A DNA stretch of 64,000 nt from Eubacterium sp. 1001713B170207_170306_E7 (GTDB taxonomy: Bacteria > Bacillota > Clostridia > Eubacteriales > Eubacteriaceae), in contig NZ_JADMVE010000003.1 in NCBI RefSeq assembly GCF_015547515.1, positions 62,001 to 126,000 on the forward strand, written 5' to 3'. Made by a program: the position numbers and the translations under genes. Shown here piece by piece: positions 816 to 62,607 of the stretch. The notes under the pieces were generated by a model. The model ran no database searches, had not been told where the DNA came from, and saw only the letters and a list, made by a program, of their open reading frames with translations. Position 1 is the first letter of the stretch; every line of letters begins with the position of its first letter.

Positions 816-1607
816 TCATAAATCCTTCAGATGTACGCCGCTTCGCTTATATTTGACAGCGAGCATTTCAGCAACGATCGAAATGGCAATTTCCTCAGGT
901 GTTTCTCCGCCAATATCCATGCCAATGGGGGCATAGACGGCTTCCAGTTGGTCGTTGCTAAAGCCTTCTGATCGAAGCTTTTCATAGACCGCCGCGATTT
1001 TTTTACGGCTGCCGATCATCCCGAGATAGGCGGCCTTTTTAGTTAAAGCTGCCGCCAGAGCCTCTTTATCGAAACGGTGTCCATAGGTAGTAATGACGAT
1101 AAATGCACCTGCCGGAACGGGCAGCGACATAACGCCCTCGTAAAATTCTGTGACCGGGACATAGGTATCCGCCAAAGCGATCGCCTCGCCGATCTGGTCT
1201 TCACCGCGGGTATCAACCAGGGTGATATCAAATCCGGCCAGGCGAGCTGTTTTCATCAGGGCGGTGCCCACATGGCCAGCGCCGCAGAGCAGCAGACGCG
1301 GCCTTGGGTTTTCAACCTCGATAAATACAGAGAAGTCGCCACCGCAGACCATACCATTTTCGCTGTTCAGAACATAATCCTTAACGGCGTTTTCACCATA
1401 GCGGATACATGCCTGAGCGTCCTGTATGGCCAGCAGCTCCGAACTGCCGCCGCCAATGGTGCCAATGCTGTTGCCGTCAGCAGTTACCAGCATTTTGCCG
1501 CTTTTTCTTGGAACTGCGCCGTCTGCACGGATAATGGTTATTATCGCGTAGGGACGTCCGGCTTCCTCCAACTTAAGCTGTTCTTCCAGTAATTTCTTTG
1601 GATTCAT
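816..1607 (-). CDS. XdhC/CoxI family protein (molybdo-enzyme maturation)
   Basis: 263 residues. The N-terminal part has the XdhC-type segment GGSSELLAIQDA and a conserved cysteine region (MVCGGDFSVFIE). The C-terminal part is a Rossmann-like XdhC_C domain beginning LLLCGAGHVG at about residue 105, with IVITTYGHRFD, YLGMIGSRKK and PIGMDIGGETPEEIA. Family members bind and deliver molybdenum cofactor, often after sulfuration, to xanthine dehydrogenase-like hydroxylases; no such hydroxylase is in the window. It is the last gene of the operon, 14 bp after the ATPase gene. Linkage suggests the importer carries molybdate, tungstate or a related metal species (inference). Confidence 0.85.
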   Translation of the reverse strand: MNPKKLLEEQLKLEEAGRPYAIITIIRADGAVPRKSGKMLVTADGNSIGTIGGGSSELLAIQDAQACIRYGENAVKDYVLNSENGMVCGGDFSVFIEVENPRPRLLLCGAGHVGTALMKTARLAGFDITLVDTRGEDQIGEAIALADTYVPVTEFYEGVMSLPVPAGAFIVITTYGHRFDKEALAAALTKKAAYLGMIGSRKKIAAVYEKLRSEGFSNDQLEAVYAPIGMDIGGETPEEIAISIVAEMLAVKYKRSGVHLKDL

Positions 1608-3469: not shown

Positions 3470-4507
3470 TTATTGAAGCCCAAGCTGTTCCTTGGTAAAG
3501 CTTTTGCCATAGACCATCTGATAGAAGGCATCGACATCCTTCATAAAATCATCAGAACTATAAAGATCGCCGTGAAGGTTATTTGCTGCCCAGCAGACAC
3601 CGAGAACAGAGGAGGCCGTCGGGTAATCCCACGGTTCCAGTGCAGACGGAAAAACATAAACGGCTTTGTCCTGAACAGCCTTAATACTGCTCCAGGCCGG
3701 ATCATTCAGAATATCATCCACTTTATATTTGGCGTAGGAAGGTATCCAGATGATATCTGGATTCCAGCCAACGATCTGCTCAATGCTGACATCGGCAAAT
3801 TCGCCCTTCTTATCCAGACCGCTGACTGCGTTGCTTCCGCCGGCTTTTTCGATAATATAGGTCTGAATCATGGCATCAGGGGCGACGGTCAACTGGCTGG
3901 TACCGCCTAAGAACAGGATAGACGGCTTTTCAGAAGCCGAGCCTACCTTCTTGTTGACATCGGTGATTTTATCATTAATAAAAGAAGTGATTTCTTCGGC
4001 GCGGTTGTCTTCTCCCAATGCCTTACCGACGATTTTTAAGGAATTTGTGACGGTATCAAAGCTTTCGTCGTTAGGAAGTGCAACGATGGCCGGAACATTT
4101 ACTTCGGCGAACTGGTCAGCTTGACCGGCAAAACGTTCAGGCAGAATCGCAAGGTCTGCACCTAACTCCATAACCGTCTCCATATTGATATCCTTACTCT
4201 TGCCGATCTGTGGAAGATCATCGTATCCGTCAATAACCTGCTCATACAGGCCCCGGGCCATGTCCTTGTTGCCAAAGCCGGCGATATACTTGCCGCCGCC
4301 AATGACAACTGCGGTGTTTAAGGATGGGTTATGTGTCCCAACGACCTTGGTCGCCGGCGCAGGAAGGGTGACCTCTCGCCCGATGGCGTCTGTGACTTTG
4401 ATTTCACCAGAGGTTTTATCGGCCGATGTATCCTGCTTCGGGCTGCAGGCAGTCACGCTTAAAATTAATGTAAGGGCCAGAATCATACATAACAGTTTTT
4501 TTCTCAT
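3470..4507 (-). CDS. FecB-type ABC importer, substrate-binding lipoprotein
   Basis: 345 residues. Lipoprotein signal peptide MRKKLLCMILALTLILSVTAC, with the lipobox cysteine at about residue 21. The mature part is a class III binding protein (TroA/FecB fold) starting ITVDAIGR-like: VTDAIGREVTLPAPATKVVGT, two lobes joined by a long helix. The true start is the ATG at 4507 behind GGAGGAAAAA; the frame stays open ten codons upstream but without a ribosome site. First gene of the operon; a TATAAT at 4637-4642 may be its -10. The tail residues WDYPTASSVLGVCWAANNLH resemble those of iron-complex and MolA-type proteins. Substrate unresolved. Confidence 0.88.
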   Translation of the reverse strand: MRKKLLCMILALTLILSVTACSPKQDTSADKTSGEIKVTDAIGREVTLPAPATKVVGTHNPSLNTAVVIGGGKYIAGFGNKDMARGLYEQVIDGYDDLPQIGKSKDINMETVMELGADLAILPERFAGQADQFAEVNVPAIVALPNDESFDTVTNSLKIVGKALGEDNRAEEITSFINDKITDVNKKVGSASEKPSILFLGGTSQLTVAPDAMIQTYIIEKAGGSNAVSGLDKKGEFADVSIEQIVGWNPDIIWIPSYAKYKVDDILNDPAWSSIKAVQDKAVYVFPSALEPWDYPTASSVLGVCWAANNLHGDLYSSDDFMKDVDAFYQMVYGKSFTKEQLGLQ

Positions 4508-4698
4508 TTTTTCCTCCTTTTCAAGTACGGAAGGCACAGTCGTTTCCAGCAGTACCCTATTGTGGTAAAACCGTGAACAGATGATTTTGGGAAGCCTGTT
4601 TTTAGGACAATACCATCAGAGACTTTTCATAAATTCATTATAGCACGGTTTGATAACGTTTTAAAGGAGAAAAACAACAGGATGAATGAATAGAAAAT

Positions 4699-55754: not shown

Positions 55755-55802
55755 GAGTTATAGTCTATACTGATTTTAATTTAATAATGTTTTTAATACA
55801 TA

Positions 55803-55885
55803 AAAAGGGCAAATCTGCTGAAAGGCAGAGACGCAAAACTAAAGGGCCTAAAACCGCTAAGCGGTAACGGCAGCCAGCTGCTATG
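55803..55885 (+). promoter_or_regulatory. Cyclic di-GMP-I riboswitch (GEMM)
   Basis: The core reads GGGCAAAtc, a hairpin capped by GAAA (TGC-tGAAAG-GCA), GACGCAAA, GGGCCTAA, then CCGC/GCGG and CGGCAGCC. GGGCAAA, GACGCAAA and GGCCTAA in this order, with the GAAA tetraloop, are the class I signature. The GGCAGCC arm can pair with GGCTGC in the terminator that follows, giving a clear route for ligand-dependent switching. The sign (on or off) is not decided from sequence. Confidence 0.9.
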
Positions 55886-56002: not shown

Positions 56003-59000
56003 ATGAAAAAATGGTTAGCTTGTTTTATGTCAGTTGTGATGCTGTTTGCGAGCTTTCCGGTATCCATTCTCGCAGAGGAAGCCACACAGGAAGCCCCGGC
56101 TGAAATAACTGAGAATGATATCGTGACAGAAAATCGGGAAGAAGACGGGCCGGAAGAGGACGCAGGGTCTGCTTTTTCTGCGGATGCTGAAGTTTTGGAG
56201 CCTCTGGCGGAAAGCGAAGAGGATACTGCGATCCGCGCTGGCGGGCCTGCAGAGCTTGTGGGGAATATAGAGGTGGAAATACACTTTGCCCAGCCAAGAA
56301 CAAAGCTGCTTGAGACCGCAGTCCTGACGCTGACATCCGAAGATGGCACGGCAAAGGAAATTTCGCTGAAAGATATTGTGAATGAAAAAACCTCGACTGA
56401 TTTTGGCGGCCGAAATATTCAATATAAGACATTGCTTTTTGACAAGGCTGCCGACAACGGGGACAGCAGCAATGTTTTTTATGATGCGCAGAATCCGGAC
56501 GCGAGGGTTTATTTTGCCAATGTCAATTTTTATCATCTGCCCGTTGGTGATTATTCGTTAACCTTTTCGGATAAGGGTATGGTATCAGCCCAGGCTCAGG
56601 TAAGTCTTCAGGGGAGTTCTAAGCGCGTCGAATTTATGGGCGGCGCTATTTTAACCGGAGATGTAGACCAAAACGGTACCATCGACGATGCCGACTACGA
56701 TGCTGTGTTGGGAAAGCTGGGCTCTTCCGAAAAAGATTATGATTTGAACGGAGACGGAAGTGTCGATATTGTCGATCTGGTCTACCTGCAGGAAAATATG
56801 GGCGCGGCCTATGATCCTGAGAAGGTACAAATCAGCGATACGTCTCCGATTGTAGATCCGGGAAATGTGGTGGTTGAAAAAAACGAAGCAAACCCTGTCA
56901 CAGTAAAAAGCGGCGATATTGCCCAGCTTTTCAGCACAGCTTCCGACCAGGCGGCTTCAGTCCAGTTTGCCAAAGAAAATGAAGGTGTGATTTCTGAGGA
57001 TGAACCGCTGGAGATTCCACTTGTCATGCAGGAACCAGTTGTGGCGACAGAGCTGCGGATTGCTCCCAGCGAGCTTGGCCTTGAAAACGCCCCGAAAAAG
57101 GGCAGGATTGAAATTATCGACGACCAGGGGACGGAAGCGCTTTATGATTTTGACCTCCAGGACAAGGTGGATTATCTCTTTTTAACGGATGAAGCTTCCC
57201 CATCGACCATTGTCATTAACCTGAATAAACAGGTCGCCATCAAAAAGGTTACCATCTTTGTGACAGAGACCAACAGGGCGAGCAGCAATCTGGTGGAAAT
57301 TTCAAAGGTCGAGTTTTTAAATAATACCAAAGATAAAATTGTCGAGCAGGTCACGAGCATACCCACAAATGTCAGGGTGGCTTCTGGCAATGAAAGCCTG
57401 ACGGTCAGCTGGGAGGCGCAGGCCAATGTGACCGGCTATGAAGTGAAGATGAGCTTCATAAACCCCAAAACCGGTAAAAATGAAACCACATTGACTCCGG
57501 TGGACGGAACCTCTCTGACTGTCAGCGATTTAATCAATTTTGTGGCATATACTATTTCGGTCCAGTCGGTTAACCGCTCTGAAAGTGGAAACTGGGAAAG
57601 TGGTTTCAGCGCGCCGGTTATCGGAACGCCTATGCCAACCTCAGTGCCTGAAAGACCAGAGGGTATAACCCTGAAGGGCGGGTACCGCCAAATCACGGTC
57701 AACTGGGAAAAACAGAAGAATTCTACGGGCTACAATGTCTATTACCGTGAAAAAGGACAAGGGGAATACACAAAGGCCGGGGATTTAAGCGGCACCAGCT
57801 ACGTGATTGAGAATCTTAAGGACCAGTCGGAATATGAGGTTTACCTGACCGGTTATAACGCCATCGGCGAGGGCGCGAAATCACCGGTATATACCTGCGC
57901 CACCGAATCCATTGAACCGCCGGTTACCTCAAACTATAAACTGATCAACCGGGCCGGGGAGGTAAATCAGCCGACTGCCCATATTAAGGACGTCACCTAT
58001 CCTTATTTAAAAGAGAGTGATTACGAAAAGGCTTTCGATAAATTTGATATTGTGGATAATGATTACACCTCATACTGGAACTATGGTGGCTGGAATGCCG
58101 GCGGCTGGTCGGGCACGCTTCAGGCGCCTGTCGTCGAATTTGACCAGACCTATGAGATGAATGATATTGTGCTGGTGCGCGGCGAGGGCGAACCGAGTAC
58201 ATACAACGCTTATATGAAAATCCGCTGGTGGGATGAAAACGGACAGGTCTATAATCTGAATATTGGCAATGACTTTGCGGTTCAGTCCAAGAAAAGCACG
58301 AATGGCAAGGAATATTACCGTATCCGTCTGAATGAAAAAATCAAGCCTGCTAAAATTCAGATTAATCCGGCGCTTTACTGGGCCGGCGCACCCAACGCGC
58401 GCTGCCGGATTTCGGAAATAAAATTTTATGAGTACGACAGTCTGGCAGATGAGACCAGCGCCCTGTTTATGGACGATCTGCATGTGGAACTGAAAGACAG
58501 CGTGACCATGGCGTATGTGGATAAGCTCATTGAGCGCGCCAATACACCAGACCCAGTCAGCGGTGAGTTCCATCCGGATAAGGATTCCATTCTTTCTGAA
58601 CTGACGCTGGCAAAAGCTATTTTGAGTGAAACGAATATTGACGATACGGTTCTGGTGGACCAGAACGTATCAAACGCCAAAAATGGAAACCTGGGCTTTG
58701 CAATGGCCCTGAATGACTTCCAGCCTCTGGGTCTGGCGGCCAGAGCGGGAGACACCATCAATGTCTATGTGGGGACAGAGGGAAATGTCCTGCCGCAGCT
58801 TGTTTATACCCAGTATCACCCGGATGTTAAAACAGGGTGGAGCAAAACCGTTAGCCTGAAGAAGGGCAAGAATGAAATTACCCTCGACCAGATCGGCGGG
58901 GAAGACAGCGAACGCGGTGGCGCGCTGTATATCCGTTATCCCAATGCCAGCCCGTCCGGTAGGGACATCAAGGTGAGAGTAGCGGGCGCCACAAAGGTTC

Positions 59001-61240
59001 CCTGCTTAAATCTGACGGGTGTTACAGATGAAAATGAAGCAAAAGACGCGATTCAGTCCTATGTTAAGGAGCTGAAGGACTTTGTTGCCAGGGTACCGGA
59101 GCTGTACGCAGGCGAGGACTCGAAATACCAATGGGATAAAAAGTCCAGTGTCTATAATAGTACAGACATTATGACAGACCAGATGCTGTTGTCCGTGCCG
59201 GCGACAGCTGTGCTGGAGGCCCTATCCGGTTCCGAAAGCGAACAGATTGAGCAGCTCTATCAGAACAGCCTGGCCATGGAGCAGCTGATGGACATCACTT
59301 ATCAGTCCAAGGGGCTGTCCCGAGACGCGAAAGACGCAAAGGACAAATGGCCTGGTTCCAGAATTAACATTCGTTATACCCGCATGTTTACCGGTGCTTT
59401 TATGTACGCGACCGGCCAGCATATCGGTATTGAGTATGGCTCTGTCGGCGGCATGACCCACGGGGAGCCGCATACAAAACAGGCCGACGGAACCATGAGC
59501 GGCGGAAAGCTTTATGGCTGGGGCATCGCCCATGAAATCGGGCATGTGACCGATGAGGGAGATATGGTATACGGCGAGACCTCCAATAATATTCTGTCTC
59601 AGCTGGTTAAAACCTTTGATGAAAAAGAAGCCGCACGTGCGGACTATCCCGCGATATATCAAAAGGTTACATCCGGTACAAAGGGCTACGCGAGCAATGT
59701 CTTCACACAGCTTGGCATGTTCTGGCAGCTGCATCTGGCTTACGACGATACCTATAACAATCTCGATGATTCCAACAGCTTCTATGGCCGCATGTACCAG
59801 AATTACCGGAGAAACACGGTAAAGACAGACAAGGATAACCTGTTAATCCGGATGGCGAGCGATACAGCGCAGAAGGATTTGACCGCCTACTTTGAAAAAT
59901 GGGGCTTGACGCCAAACGATGAAACCATCGCCTATGTGAGCAAATACCCCAAAGAGGAGCGGGCCATCTACTATCTGAACGATAACGCAAGACATAAACG
60001 CATTGAAAAAGCGCCGGCAATGGACAAGAATACCAAGGTCGAAGCCACGCTGAACCATAGCGTGGAAAATGGAAAGGATCCAAAACAGGTTACCTTTAAT
60101 TTAGGCGTAAACAAAAATCCCGAAACGATTTTAGGCTATGAAATTATCCGAAACGGTGAGGCGGTTGGCTTTACAACCGACACTACCTACACAGATGTGG
60201 TATCCTCCGTGAACAACCGCGTGCTGAGATATGAGGTGGTCGCCTATGACAATTACCTGAACAAAACCGAGGCCCTGGCCTTGGAACCGATCAAAATCCA
60301 GCACGATGGCAGCATTGCCAAAACAAAATGGACCATGGATACAGATATGACCTCGGAAGGGGATACTTACATTGAGGACTGTACAGGCTCAGGCTTAAAC
60401 CATCCGGCCCTGGCCAGTCTTTATGACGATGATTACAGCAACCTTTATCAGGGAGTAAAAGGCACCGGCAATGCACAGATTACCATTAATCTGCATGAAA
60501 ATATGCCCGTTGTCGGGTTTAAATACACAGCGGCTGTCGAGGACGGAGCCCTTGTGGAAAATACCATTAAAGGCTACACCATCCAGGTAAGCGAGGATGG
60601 CTCCAACTGGCAGGATGCCGCGAAGGGGAGCTTCGTGCTAACGGCTGAAAACCGCGAAGCGAAGGTTTACTTTAACGAAAAAGACCAGGAAGGTGCGAAT
60701 CAGCTGATTACCTACCGCGCAGAATATATGCGTATCATCGCAAATGGCGCGTCTGGCATAAGCGCGGCAGAATTTGACATTATCGGACCGCCGGGAGATA
60801 ACGTAGAGCTTGAACAGAGTGGCATAGGACTGTTGGAGGCGGATTTCGTCTATGATCCGGCTCAGCCCGCCATCAAAGCAGGCTCGCTCATCTTTACCGG
60901 CAGCTACCGCGGTCATCCGGGCTTTAACGCCATACTGCTGAAGGATCAGGACGGCAACAACGTTGTCGGCAAAAATAATAAAGCCGCAAGTATCTTTATG
61001 GCAAACATACCGGGAAACGGCAATGTCGGCGAAATCAGCCAGGGTAACTGGATTTACTGGATTGACAAGGACCAGCTGGATATGAAAAAGCTCCCCAAAA
61101 CCGTCAGGGTTGAGCTGTACCGCGTCAACAATATGGAAACCAACGAAGGCCAGCGGCTGACAAGCGACACCTTTGCTGTGGCATTACCCGACAGCCTGCC
61201 GAGTATCAGGCTGACCGATGGACAGATACCAGAGAAATAG
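56003..61240 (+). CDS. Secreted M60-type metallopeptidase with dockerin, FN3 and F5/8C-like domains
   Basis: 1745 residues. Signal peptide 1-25. Dockerin-like pair of calcium loops at about 219-272 (DVDQNGTIDDADYD and DLNGDGSVDIVD). Two fibronectin III domains (about 451-540 and 546-638), a discoidin-like carbohydrate-binding domain (about 643-812), the M60/enhancin-type catalytic region (about 896-1333) with HEIGH at 1177-1181 and likely third zinc ligand Glu1192, and a second F5/8C-like domain (about 1436-1596). Such enzymes cleave mucin-type glycoproteins. No wall-anchor motif at its C-terminus. Controlled by the c-di-GMP riboswitch upstream. Confidence 0.9.
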   Translation: MKKWLACFMSVVMLFASFPVSILAEEATQEAPAEITENDIVTENREEDGPEEDAGSAFSADAEVLEPLAESEEDTAIRAGGPAELVGNIEVEIHFAQPRTKLLETAVLTLTSEDGTAKEISLKDIVNEKTSTDFGGRNIQYKTLLFDKAADNGDSSNVFYDAQNPDARVYFANVNFYHLPVGDYSLTFSDKGMVSAQAQVSLQGSSKRVEFMGGAILTGDVDQNGTIDDADYDAVLGKLGSSEKDYDLNGDGSVDIVDLVYLQENMGAAYDPEKVQISDTSPIVDPGNVVVEKNEANPVTVKSGDIAQLFSTASDQAASVQFAKENEGVISEDEPLEIPLVMQEPVVATELRIAPSELGLENAPKKGRIEIIDDQGTEALYDFDLQDKVDYLFLTDEASPSTIVINLNKQVAIKKVTIFVTETNRASSNLVEISKVEFLNNTKDKIVEQVTSIPTNVRVASGNESLTVSWEAQANVTGYEVKMSFINPKTGKNETTLTPVDGTSLTVSDLINFVAYTISVQSVNRSESGNWESGFSAPVIGTPMPTSVPERPEGITLKGGYRQITVNWEKQKNSTGYNVYYREKGQGEYTKAGDLSGTSYVIENLKDQSEYEVYLTGYNAIGEGAKSPVYTCATESIEPPVTSNYKLINRAGEVNQPTAHIKDVTYPYLKESDYEKAFDKFDIVDNDYTSYWNYGGWNAGGWSGTLQAPVVEFDQTYEMNDIVLVRGEGEPSTYNAYMKIRWWDENGQVYNLNIGNDFAVQSKKSTNGKEYYRIRLNEKIKPAKIQINPALYWAGAPNARCRISEIKFYEYDSLADETSALFMDDLHVELKDSVTMAYVDKLIERANTPDPVSGEFHPDKDSILSELTLAKAILSETNIDDTVLVDQNVSNAKNGNLGFAMALNDFQPLGLAARAGDTINVYVGTEGNVLPQLVYTQYHPDVKTGWSKTVSLKKGKNEITLDQIGGEDSERGGALYIRYPNASPSGRDIKVRVAGATKVPCLNLTGVTDENEAKDAIQSYVKELKDFVARVPELYAGEDSKYQWDKKSSVYNSTDIMTDQMLLSVPATAVLEALSGSESEQIEQLYQNSLAMEQLMDITYQSKGLSRDAKDAKDKWPGSRINIRYTRMFTGAFMYATGQHIGIEYGSVGGMTHGEPHTKQADGTMSGGKLYGWGIAHEIGHVTDEGDMVYGETSNNILSQLVKTFDEKEAARADYPAIYQKVTSGTKGYASNVFTQLGMFWQLHLAYDDTYNNLDDSNSFYGRMYQNYRRNTVKTDKDNLLIRMASDTAQKDLTAYFEKWGLTPNDETIAYVSKYPKEERAIYYLNDNARHKRIEKAPAMDKNTKVEATLNHSVENGKDPKQVTFNLGVNKNPETILGYEIIRNGEAVGFTTDTTYTDVVSSVNNRVLRYEVVAYDNYLNKTEALALEPIKIQHDGSIAKTKWTMDTDMTSEGDTYIEDCTGSGLNHPALASLYDDDYSNLYQGVKGTGNAQITINLHENMPVVGFKYTAAVEDGALVENTIKGYTIQVSEDGSNWQDAAKGSFVLTAENREAKVYFNEKDQEGANQLITYRAEYMRIIANGASGISAAEFDIIGPPGDNVELEQSGIGLLEADFVYDPAQPAIKAGSLIFTGSYRGHPGFNAILLKDQDGNNVVGKNNKAASIFMANIPGNGNVGEISQGNWIYWIDKDQLDMKKLPKTVRVELYRVNNMETNEGQRLTSDTFAVALPDSLPSIRLTDGQIPEK

Positions 61241-61250
61241 GAGAGCAGGA

Positions 61251-62006
61251 ATGAAGAAAAATAAAAAACTGAGAAAATTAGGGTTAAGCTGCCTGGCAGC
61301 CCTTATGATAATCCTTTTTTCAATGCCGGTCATGGCAGCGGACAACAGCCCTGAGCTGCTGGTCACAAAGGGAGAAAATGCCAATGAAGTGAATCTTTCT
61401 CTGACGAATTTTGGGGATAAAGCCATTAAAGGCTTTTCCCTTGCGTTAAAGATAACTGGCGGAGATGCGGCTTTTACCGGAGCCATTGAGGCGGGGAGCG
61501 CTTTGAACACAGAAGATACCCGTGTAAAACTACGGACAGAGAACGATGGCAGAGAAGCCACGCTGGTGGTTACCAGAAATGGACAGCTGCCGACCGGCCG
61601 TATTGATATCGGCACCCTGAAGGTTAAGGGAAAAAGCGGCGAAAAGTACAGGATTGAGGCCAGCGGCCTTGAGATGGTAAGTGTCGATGATTATCAGAAG
61701 GATACAGTCGAAATGGTGGAAATGGATAAAAACTCTGAGGATGGCCTGGTCATTGAGCGTCAGGACACAGAAGATCCCGATAAAAAACCGGATGCCACGC
61801 CAGAGACTCCGGAAGTAACCCCGGGTGAAGTGGATTCGGCTCATCCGGAAAATCCGGACGGTTCGTCACCTGCCAGGCCTTACGGTCTGGCAAACCCCTC
61901 CACCGGCGTCATCACAGACCCGAACGCCGCGGCATTTGTGTCGGCGGGCATACTTATTGTGATGCTGGCCGGTATGGCGGCTTTTAAACGCAAAAGGTTC
62001 TTATAA
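61251..62006 (+). CDS. Sortase-anchored, cohesin-like surface protein
   Basis: 251 residues from the ATG at 61251 (GGAGAGCAGGA). Signal peptide 1-29, a beta-rich domain (about 32-160) with alternating hydrophobic strands resembling a cohesin-type fold, an acidic/proline linker (165-210), sorting signal NPSTG at 215-219, hydrophobic helix and KRKR tail. It is 10 bp after the peptidase gene and shares its riboswitch. The dockerin on the peptidase and this anchored domain suggest non-covalent display of the enzyme on the wall (inference; cohesin identity is weak). Confidence 0.75.
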   Translation: MKKNKKLRKLGLSCLAALMIILFSMPVMAADNSPELLVTKGENANEVNLSLTNFGDKAIKGFSLALKITGGDAAFTGAIEAGSALNTEDTRVKLRTENDGREATLVVTRNGQLPTGRIDIGTLKVKGKSGEKYRIEASGLEMVSVDDYQKDTVEMVEMDKNSEDGLVIERQDTEDPDKKPDATPETPEVTPGEVDSAHPENPDGSSPARPYGLANPSTGVITDPNAAAFVSAGILIVMLAGMAAFKRKRFL

Positions 62007-62317: not shown

Positions 62318-62350
62318 AATAAAAAATCCTTCTCCGGGTGCGAAGAAGGA
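62318..62350 (-). terminator. Terminator of the cobalamin-riboswitch RNA
   Basis: TCCTTCTTCG and CGGAGAAGGA (one G-T pair) with a 4-nt loop, then T6 on the minus strand. CATGTAC/GTACATG flanks extend the inverted symmetry further out. Confidence 0.88.
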
Positions 62351-62418
62351 TAAAAAATACTAACACGGTACATGATAGCTCTTAAACCCTCTAAATCGGA
62401 GGTAATTAAGAATAAACT

Positions 62419-62554
62419 CCTATATAGGTCTTCTGGCTCGGCAATATCATTCCGTTTCCCTTCCCATCCGGCAGGACAGTGGATTGAAACGGGCATTTTG
62501 CCTTACAGCTGCGATTACAGCAAAGGATTTTCACCTTTTTCCCTTGAACATAGG
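62419..62554 (-). ncRNA. Cobalamin riboswitch aptamer, no gene downstream
   Basis: Minus strand: P1 CCTAT/ATAGG, then AAGGGAAaaaGGTGAAAATCC, TTTGCTGTAATCGCAGCTGTAAGGC, CCACTGTCCTGCCGGATGGGAAGG and AGCCAGAAGACC. This is the B12-box core (GGTGAAAATCC, GCTG, CTGTAA, GCCACTG-like and GGGAAGG) in the correct order. It is followed by a stem around 62372-62410 and then the terminator at 62318-62350. Downstream on this strand lie only 300 bp of non-coding DNA and the antisense of the surface-protein gene. Confidence 0.92.
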
Positions 62555-62578
62555 ATCATTCAATATTTAACTAAGGTT

Positions 62579-62607
62579 ATAATACACCAGATATGGTGGT
62601 TTGTCAA
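62579..62607 (-). promoter_or_regulatory. Promoter of the cobalamin-riboswitch RNA
   Basis: Minus strand TTGACA (62602-62607), 17-bp spacer, TATTAT (62579-62584). The transcript to the terminator would be about 255 nt. Confidence 0.85.

Follow-up and report, generated by a model that had tools for sequence, protein, structure and literature searches.

A stand-alone cobalamin riboswitch RNA of Eubacteriaceae whose completion is predicted to dismantle its own aptamer

The window analysed here (64,000 nucleotides, G000:C3:62001-126000) carries on its minus strand a cobalamin riboswitch that probably constitutes a regulatory RNA gene of its own, switched by B12, the full-length product of which would refold and act in trans under B12 limitation. 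The promoter, full RF00174 aptamer and terminator of the originally predicted orphan B12 riboswitch were confirmed, with no gene behind them. As an orphan the unit indeed stands alone, but it does not end at 62318, since conserved sequence runs on to 62055-62015 (Table 1). In the mechanism that we propose, the L5-L13 pairing would hold the P13 hairpin in the presence of B12, the terminator at 62351-62321 would form and only an RNA of ~250 nt would be made. When B12 is scarce, P13 would pair with the terminator apex, polymerase would read through and a non-coding RNA of ~560 nt would result. The tail of this full-length RNA is predicted to pair with its own 5' end (helix P0), stripping P1 as well as some of the aptamer core. 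The refolded RNA would be locked in a B12-insensitive state, displaying a UGUGUR-loop hairpin and CU-rich stretches, and we infer a trans-acting role for it when B12 is limiting, with base-pairing to mRNAs as the most likely mode. More tentatively, with confidence a little short of even, we propose a one-way riboswitch RNA: the aptamer decides completion, completion dismantles the sensor by 5'-3' end pairing, and the locked RNA regulates B12-dependent metabolism in trans across the Eubacteriaceae, including model acetogens.

Table 1. Sequence features of the element in the window, in order from the promoter.
Feature	Position	Strand	Details
Sigma-70-type promoter TTGACA-17-TATTAT	62607-62579	minus	11 of 12 consensus bases
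P0 5' strand GTTAAATATTGA, at the RNA 5' end	62571-62560	minus	runs into P1 5' strand, 62559-62555
Cobalamin riboswitch aptamer, RF00174	62568-62406	minus	78.8 bits, E 1e-17
P13 hairpin CCTCCGATTTAGAGG	62402-62388	minus	kissing partner of L5; alternative partner is the terminator apex
Intrinsic terminator with T-run, putatively regulated	62351-62321	minus	hairpin 62351-62326
Post-terminator strand TTTCTCCTCCTTCCCGTACATG	62319-62298	minus	predicted pairing with aptamer core in full-length RNA
P0 3' strand	62254-62235	minus	TCAATATTTGAC at 62246-62235, ATCAT at 62254-62250
Post-P0 domain	62230-62164	minus	outer stem GTTTGGG/CCCAAAC around hairpin 62197-62172
Loop GUGUGUAA of the post-P0 hairpin	62188-62181	minus	fold; covariation
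Second, bidirectional terminator; predicted end of full-length RNA	62055-62015	minus	-24.8 kcal/mol, z -8.9

Among promoter-like matches over the 2 kb scanned, this promoter ranks first (predicted +1 at ~62572), and it is 94-97% identical in the sister species. Between its -35 and -10 lies an inverted repeat (ACCA-n7-TGGT, 62600-62585, minus strand), partly kept in G001-G004 and absent from G005, which is a possible repressor site. The aptamer score is well above the curated gathering score of RF00174 (31.5) and the match covers the full model (1-189). L5 (AAUCG, 62516-62512) is complementary to L13 (CGAUU, 62398-62394), and the first terminator hairpin has 11 bp (-14.1 kcal/mol, z -4.3). No minus-strand ORF (at least 95 aa, longest non-overlapping) was found in the 14 kb of the examined stretch that lie beyond the element; the next gene (61218-62006) is on the plus strand and convergent.

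The 4.27-Mb genome of G000 contains 15 cobalamin aptamers. Most of those inspected are followed at a short distance by a gene; directly after the terminator of the window copy and of L010 there is none. Five of the 15, including the window copy, carry the subfamily signature GCTGTAATCGCAGCTGTAA and CTCCGATTTAGAG. The gene-linked loci L007, L011 and L013 of the same genome share the aptamer signature, P13 and terminator design with the element; unlike the element, they have a gene directly behind and no P0 tail. L010 (also L038; G000:C8:139947-140151, minus strand) is a second orphan copy with a tail of type B (see below), and a response-regulator gene lies ~270 nt after it. Two near-identical CbiM-type cobalt-transport loci (L014 and L015, on C12 and C3) each lie behind a short cobalamin aptamer.

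The conserved unit extends ~300 nt past the first terminator, up to a final terminator hairpin that also serves the convergent plus-strand gene. In comparisons of G000 with its three sister species (G001-G003), identity was 98-100% in the first 60 nt past the terminator, 100% in the P0 strand and 98.6-100% in the 70 nt that follow it, compared to 95-97% in the aptamer, 81-82% in the LysR coding sequence (59-61% at third codon positions) and 72-77% in the surface-protein coding sequence. The post-terminator region is thus among the best-conserved DNA of the locus. Acetobacterium tails likewise align over long stretches. A short ORF (MNTETTSPTI) in the tail of the window element was rejected as a conserved feature, being missing from G005 and Acetobacterium. 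The Rfam scan of the tails (E <= 3) gave no named family spanning the tail at a credible score.

The 3' strand of P0 has complementarity to both the 5' end of the RNA and the 5' strand of P1. In each of the 37 elements, [AG]TT[AG]AATA at the 5' end of the RNA is matched by a complementary T[AG]TTT[AG]A[CT] in the tail, a motif pair present in none of six related aptamers without the tail. The P0 octamer occurred in 14/14 clade representatives (1.85 expected from shuffled tails), and the predicted pairing probability of P0 was 0.97-1.0 in 37/37 elements, spanning 265-434 nt. Two-sided change was seen at only one of the 12 P0 pairs and the covariation score was not above shuffles, a count that is weak alone because the P0 core is nearly invariant. 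P0 is supported instead by its first pair, which exchanges G-C, A-U and G-U, by G-U exchanges further in, and by distal parts that differ and keep complementarity: TGATCC/GGATCA in G007, AGATCC/GGATCT in G042 and CTTG/CAAG in Acetobacterium. Duplex-energy z-scores between the 5' end and the tail carried no information, since large internal loops were allowed; the motif, base-pair-probability and octamer tests were used instead.

When the terminated form is folded, nucleotides past the P0 core mostly pair as P1, while in full-length folds the P1 5' strand pairs with the tail in nearly all elements; P0 and the refolding are thermodynamic predictions computed without ligand or kinetics. The exceptions are G005, which retains much of P1, and three g5 genomes, which may retain part of it. 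The full-length fold of the window element (62572-62010) has a z-score of -6.5 and also pairs the tail segment TTTCTCCTCCTTCCC with the aptamer core. With P1 invaded by P0, an RNA that continues past the terminator should take its own aptamer apart.

Wherever P13 and the terminator were both recognised, P13 is complementary to the terminator's apical part. In the window this pairing has -11.3 kcal/mol, and the expression platform and P13 are mutually exclusive. In class I cobalamin riboswitches, L5 and L13 pair in the B12-bound state. Consequently, B12 should favour termination, and the tail would be transcribed when B12 is low. The complementarity should therefore constitute a B12-OFF switch, with full-length RNA made when B12 is low. 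No mid-terminator was recognised in g5 genomes such as G008 and G045, which keep P0, so the switch there must work otherwise; in these genomes the P0/P1 exchange itself may be the output. The g5 elements L029/L047, L085, L079 and L078 have a degenerate P13, no recognised mid-terminator and an intact P0 tail.

Two types of tail were distinguished. In type A (window, Acetobacterium), the hairpin loop GUGUGURA is constant while the stem varies freely, with two-sided changes in 8/8 pairs and a covariation score reached by none of 500 shuffles. At L040 and other Acetobacterium loci of some species, another hairpin with a GUGUGUGA loop is inserted directly behind the terminator, and the motif is therefore duplicated within the RNA. 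Type B (second Eubacterium copy, other genera) contains the motif CATTAA...TCCTC(T)TT, which resembles an anti-ribosome-binding site. Pattern searches for ribosome-binding-site-like complements of the type-B tail returned the elements themselves and scattered matches, with no convincing recurrent gene start; nor did these type-B motif searches, read for base pairing with a distant mRNA, give any recurrent gene start with extended complementarity. The UGUGUR hairpin was also considered as a site common to other mRNAs and rejected: over 12 genomes, its covariance model found only the elements, the remaining matches being scattered with E-values of at least 0.07.

The DNA search gave matches in 35/40 family genomes, in all nine genera. 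These matches include gene-linked relatives, so the loci were checked individually; 37 are orphan elements with a P0-bearing tail, and none of them has a gene directly behind in the manner of the gene-linked relatives. A genome-wide pattern scan gave matches in Eubacteriaceae only. Signature carriers include Eubacterium callanderi (two copies), E. aggregans and E. barkeri, and Acetobacterium woodii, A. wieringae, A. bakii, A. paludosum, A. fimetarium and A. dehalogenans. The element adjoins a LysR gene and a surface-protein gene in G000-G003, upp in G004 and G005, sir2 in several other genera, and a penicillin-binding-protein-like gene and a tRNA in g6. Most Acetobacterium elements lie at the end of a cbiE-cbiT operon; in G021 the element lies between an ABC transporter and cbiJ, and a terminator-like hairpin of the element's own precedes cbiJ. 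The names upp, sir2, cbiT and PBP were assigned from sequence by eye; Pfam supports CbiJ, tetrapyrrole methylase (cbiE), a methyltransferase fold (cbiT) and GATase. Just downstream of the G007 element (L028) lies a Clostridiales-1 RNA (RF01699, 99.4 bits, 1165-1322, minus strand), along with a weaker second match on the same strand (L028, 910-1027).

To our knowledge, few riboswitches control stand-alone RNAs. The described B12 ones (Rli55, EutX, AspocR) act by ANTAR titration or antisense. The literature searched contained no description of the element RNA, nor of a read-through product that removes its own aptamer. Like the element, Rli55 (Listeria) and EutX (Enterococcus) are stand-alone non-coding RNAs with a B12 riboswitch under its own promoter and early termination (PMC8079631). 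Their long form is made without B12 and is about 450 nt in Listeria (PMC8079631); the corresponding arrangement of the element, with a mid-terminator under the B12 aptamer and a longer form beyond, is read from its anatomy. By contrast, the eut-associated aptamers of the Rli55/EutX species have been reported to be class IIb (PMC11477304). The original prediction of a trans-acting B12-sensing RNA is well supported in the stand-alone, B12-switched layout (family-wide orphan arrangement, constrained tail), but not in the ANTAR mechanism it borrowed from these systems, where hairpins of the read-through RNA would sequester EutV and block the ethanolamine genes without B12. G000 does encode EutVW beside eut genes, and the layout is alike. 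However, A1/G4 hexaloops, as defined in PMC8934654, numbered five in 37 tails compared to 8.4 expected, with no dual motif in any tail and no hexaloop in any Eubacterium copy of the element. Moreover, the eut cluster of G000 is on another contig from the element, the element-bearing genomes G001 and G003 have a single ANTAR protein, NasT-like in size, and that of G005, which also has the element, gave no ANTAR match. An ANTAR decoy is thus very unlikely, and the element further differs from Rli55/EutX in that its tail is predicted to pair with the 5' end of the RNA and with P1 and in that it spans the whole acetogen family. The eutVW and eut genes of G000 (L044, G000:C6:206000-225000) adjoin integrase/relaxase-like ORFs and are apparently missing from two sister species (ANTAR search); ethanolamine use was probably acquired by G000 on a mobile element.

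The orphan layout could also be read as what remains of a B12 gene after its deletion, a 5' leader that is still transcribed and functionless. The lack of a gene behind the element agrees with this, as does its position in Acetobacterium downstream of cbiE-cbiT or, in one species, between the ABC transporter and cbiJ. But the same orphan layout recurs across the genera of the family and in several contexts, P0 is retained in 37/37, the tail is 98-100% identical between species though the flanking genes drift, and the synteny comparison found no relative with a B12 gene directly following as the switch target; we consider such a remnant highly improbable. Silencing of the convergent surface-protein gene by read-through antisense RNA, the other option originally raised, would resemble AspocR of Listeria, a non-coding transcript terminated by a B12 riboswitch (PMC8079631) and antisense to pocR. 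The convergent gene does lie just beyond the element, but the RNA would end at the final terminator, outside the coding region, and other genera have a different neighbour or one on the same strand, which leaves this reading scarcely any weight. Inverted repeats flank the unit and its genomic location differs among genera, as might be expected if it were a small mobile DNA element, with P0 as its terminal repeats by coincidence. The repeat, however, begins at the predicted transcription start with the promoter outside, the internal hairpins covary as RNA and only one or two elements of orphan form were found per genome; we give a mobile element practically no credence.

It is also conceivable, though unlikely, that the functional output is the short, B12-bound terminated RNA, or that the element is a conditional terminator for the 3' ends of upstream transcripts, the tail only resetting the fold. 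A same-orientation upstream gene ends 26-310 nt before most elements, and precedents exist in Listeria: the SAM riboswitches SreA and SreB yield a riboswitch-derived RNA that acts on another mRNA, and the LysRS terminator controls the 3' ends of the upstream gene's transcripts (PMC8079631). Against this, the element has a strong promoter of its own, the upstream gene of G005 is on the other strand, and a tail with a covarying hairpin, conserved like the aptamer, would be left unexplained. SreA itself is the terminated product of a gene-linked riboswitch, whereas the element has no linked gene and its extra part would exist in the read-through form only. We retain the full-length RNA as the probable output; its putative action on other mRNAs would resemble that of SreA.

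Acetogen energy metabolism depends on corrinoid enzymes. If the read-through product removes its own aptamer, as it should, the B12 measurement would be made once and then kept. These predictions are testable in cultivated E. limosum, E. callanderi and A. woodii. In the primary transcriptome of E. limosum (dRNA-seq), seven cobalamin riboswitches have intergenic start sites (PMC5651825), a result consistent with a locus of the window type but not specific to it. The present analysis suggests looking past the terminator of riboswitches that carry an orphan or remnant annotation.

Riboswitches of other classes were also seen in the window. A c-di-GMP-I riboswitch (55798-55885, plus strand, 74.4 bits) lies upstream of gene 56003-61240 (plus strand), which encodes a surface protein of 1745 aa (M60-peptidase/fn3/F5_F8). 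The gene after it, 61218-62006, has a sortase-like anchor at its end, and the two are possibly a c-di-GMP-controlled surface-protein pair. A molybdenum/tungsten cofactor riboswitch (Moco RNA motif) was found at 4498-4633 (minus strand, 52.9 bits).
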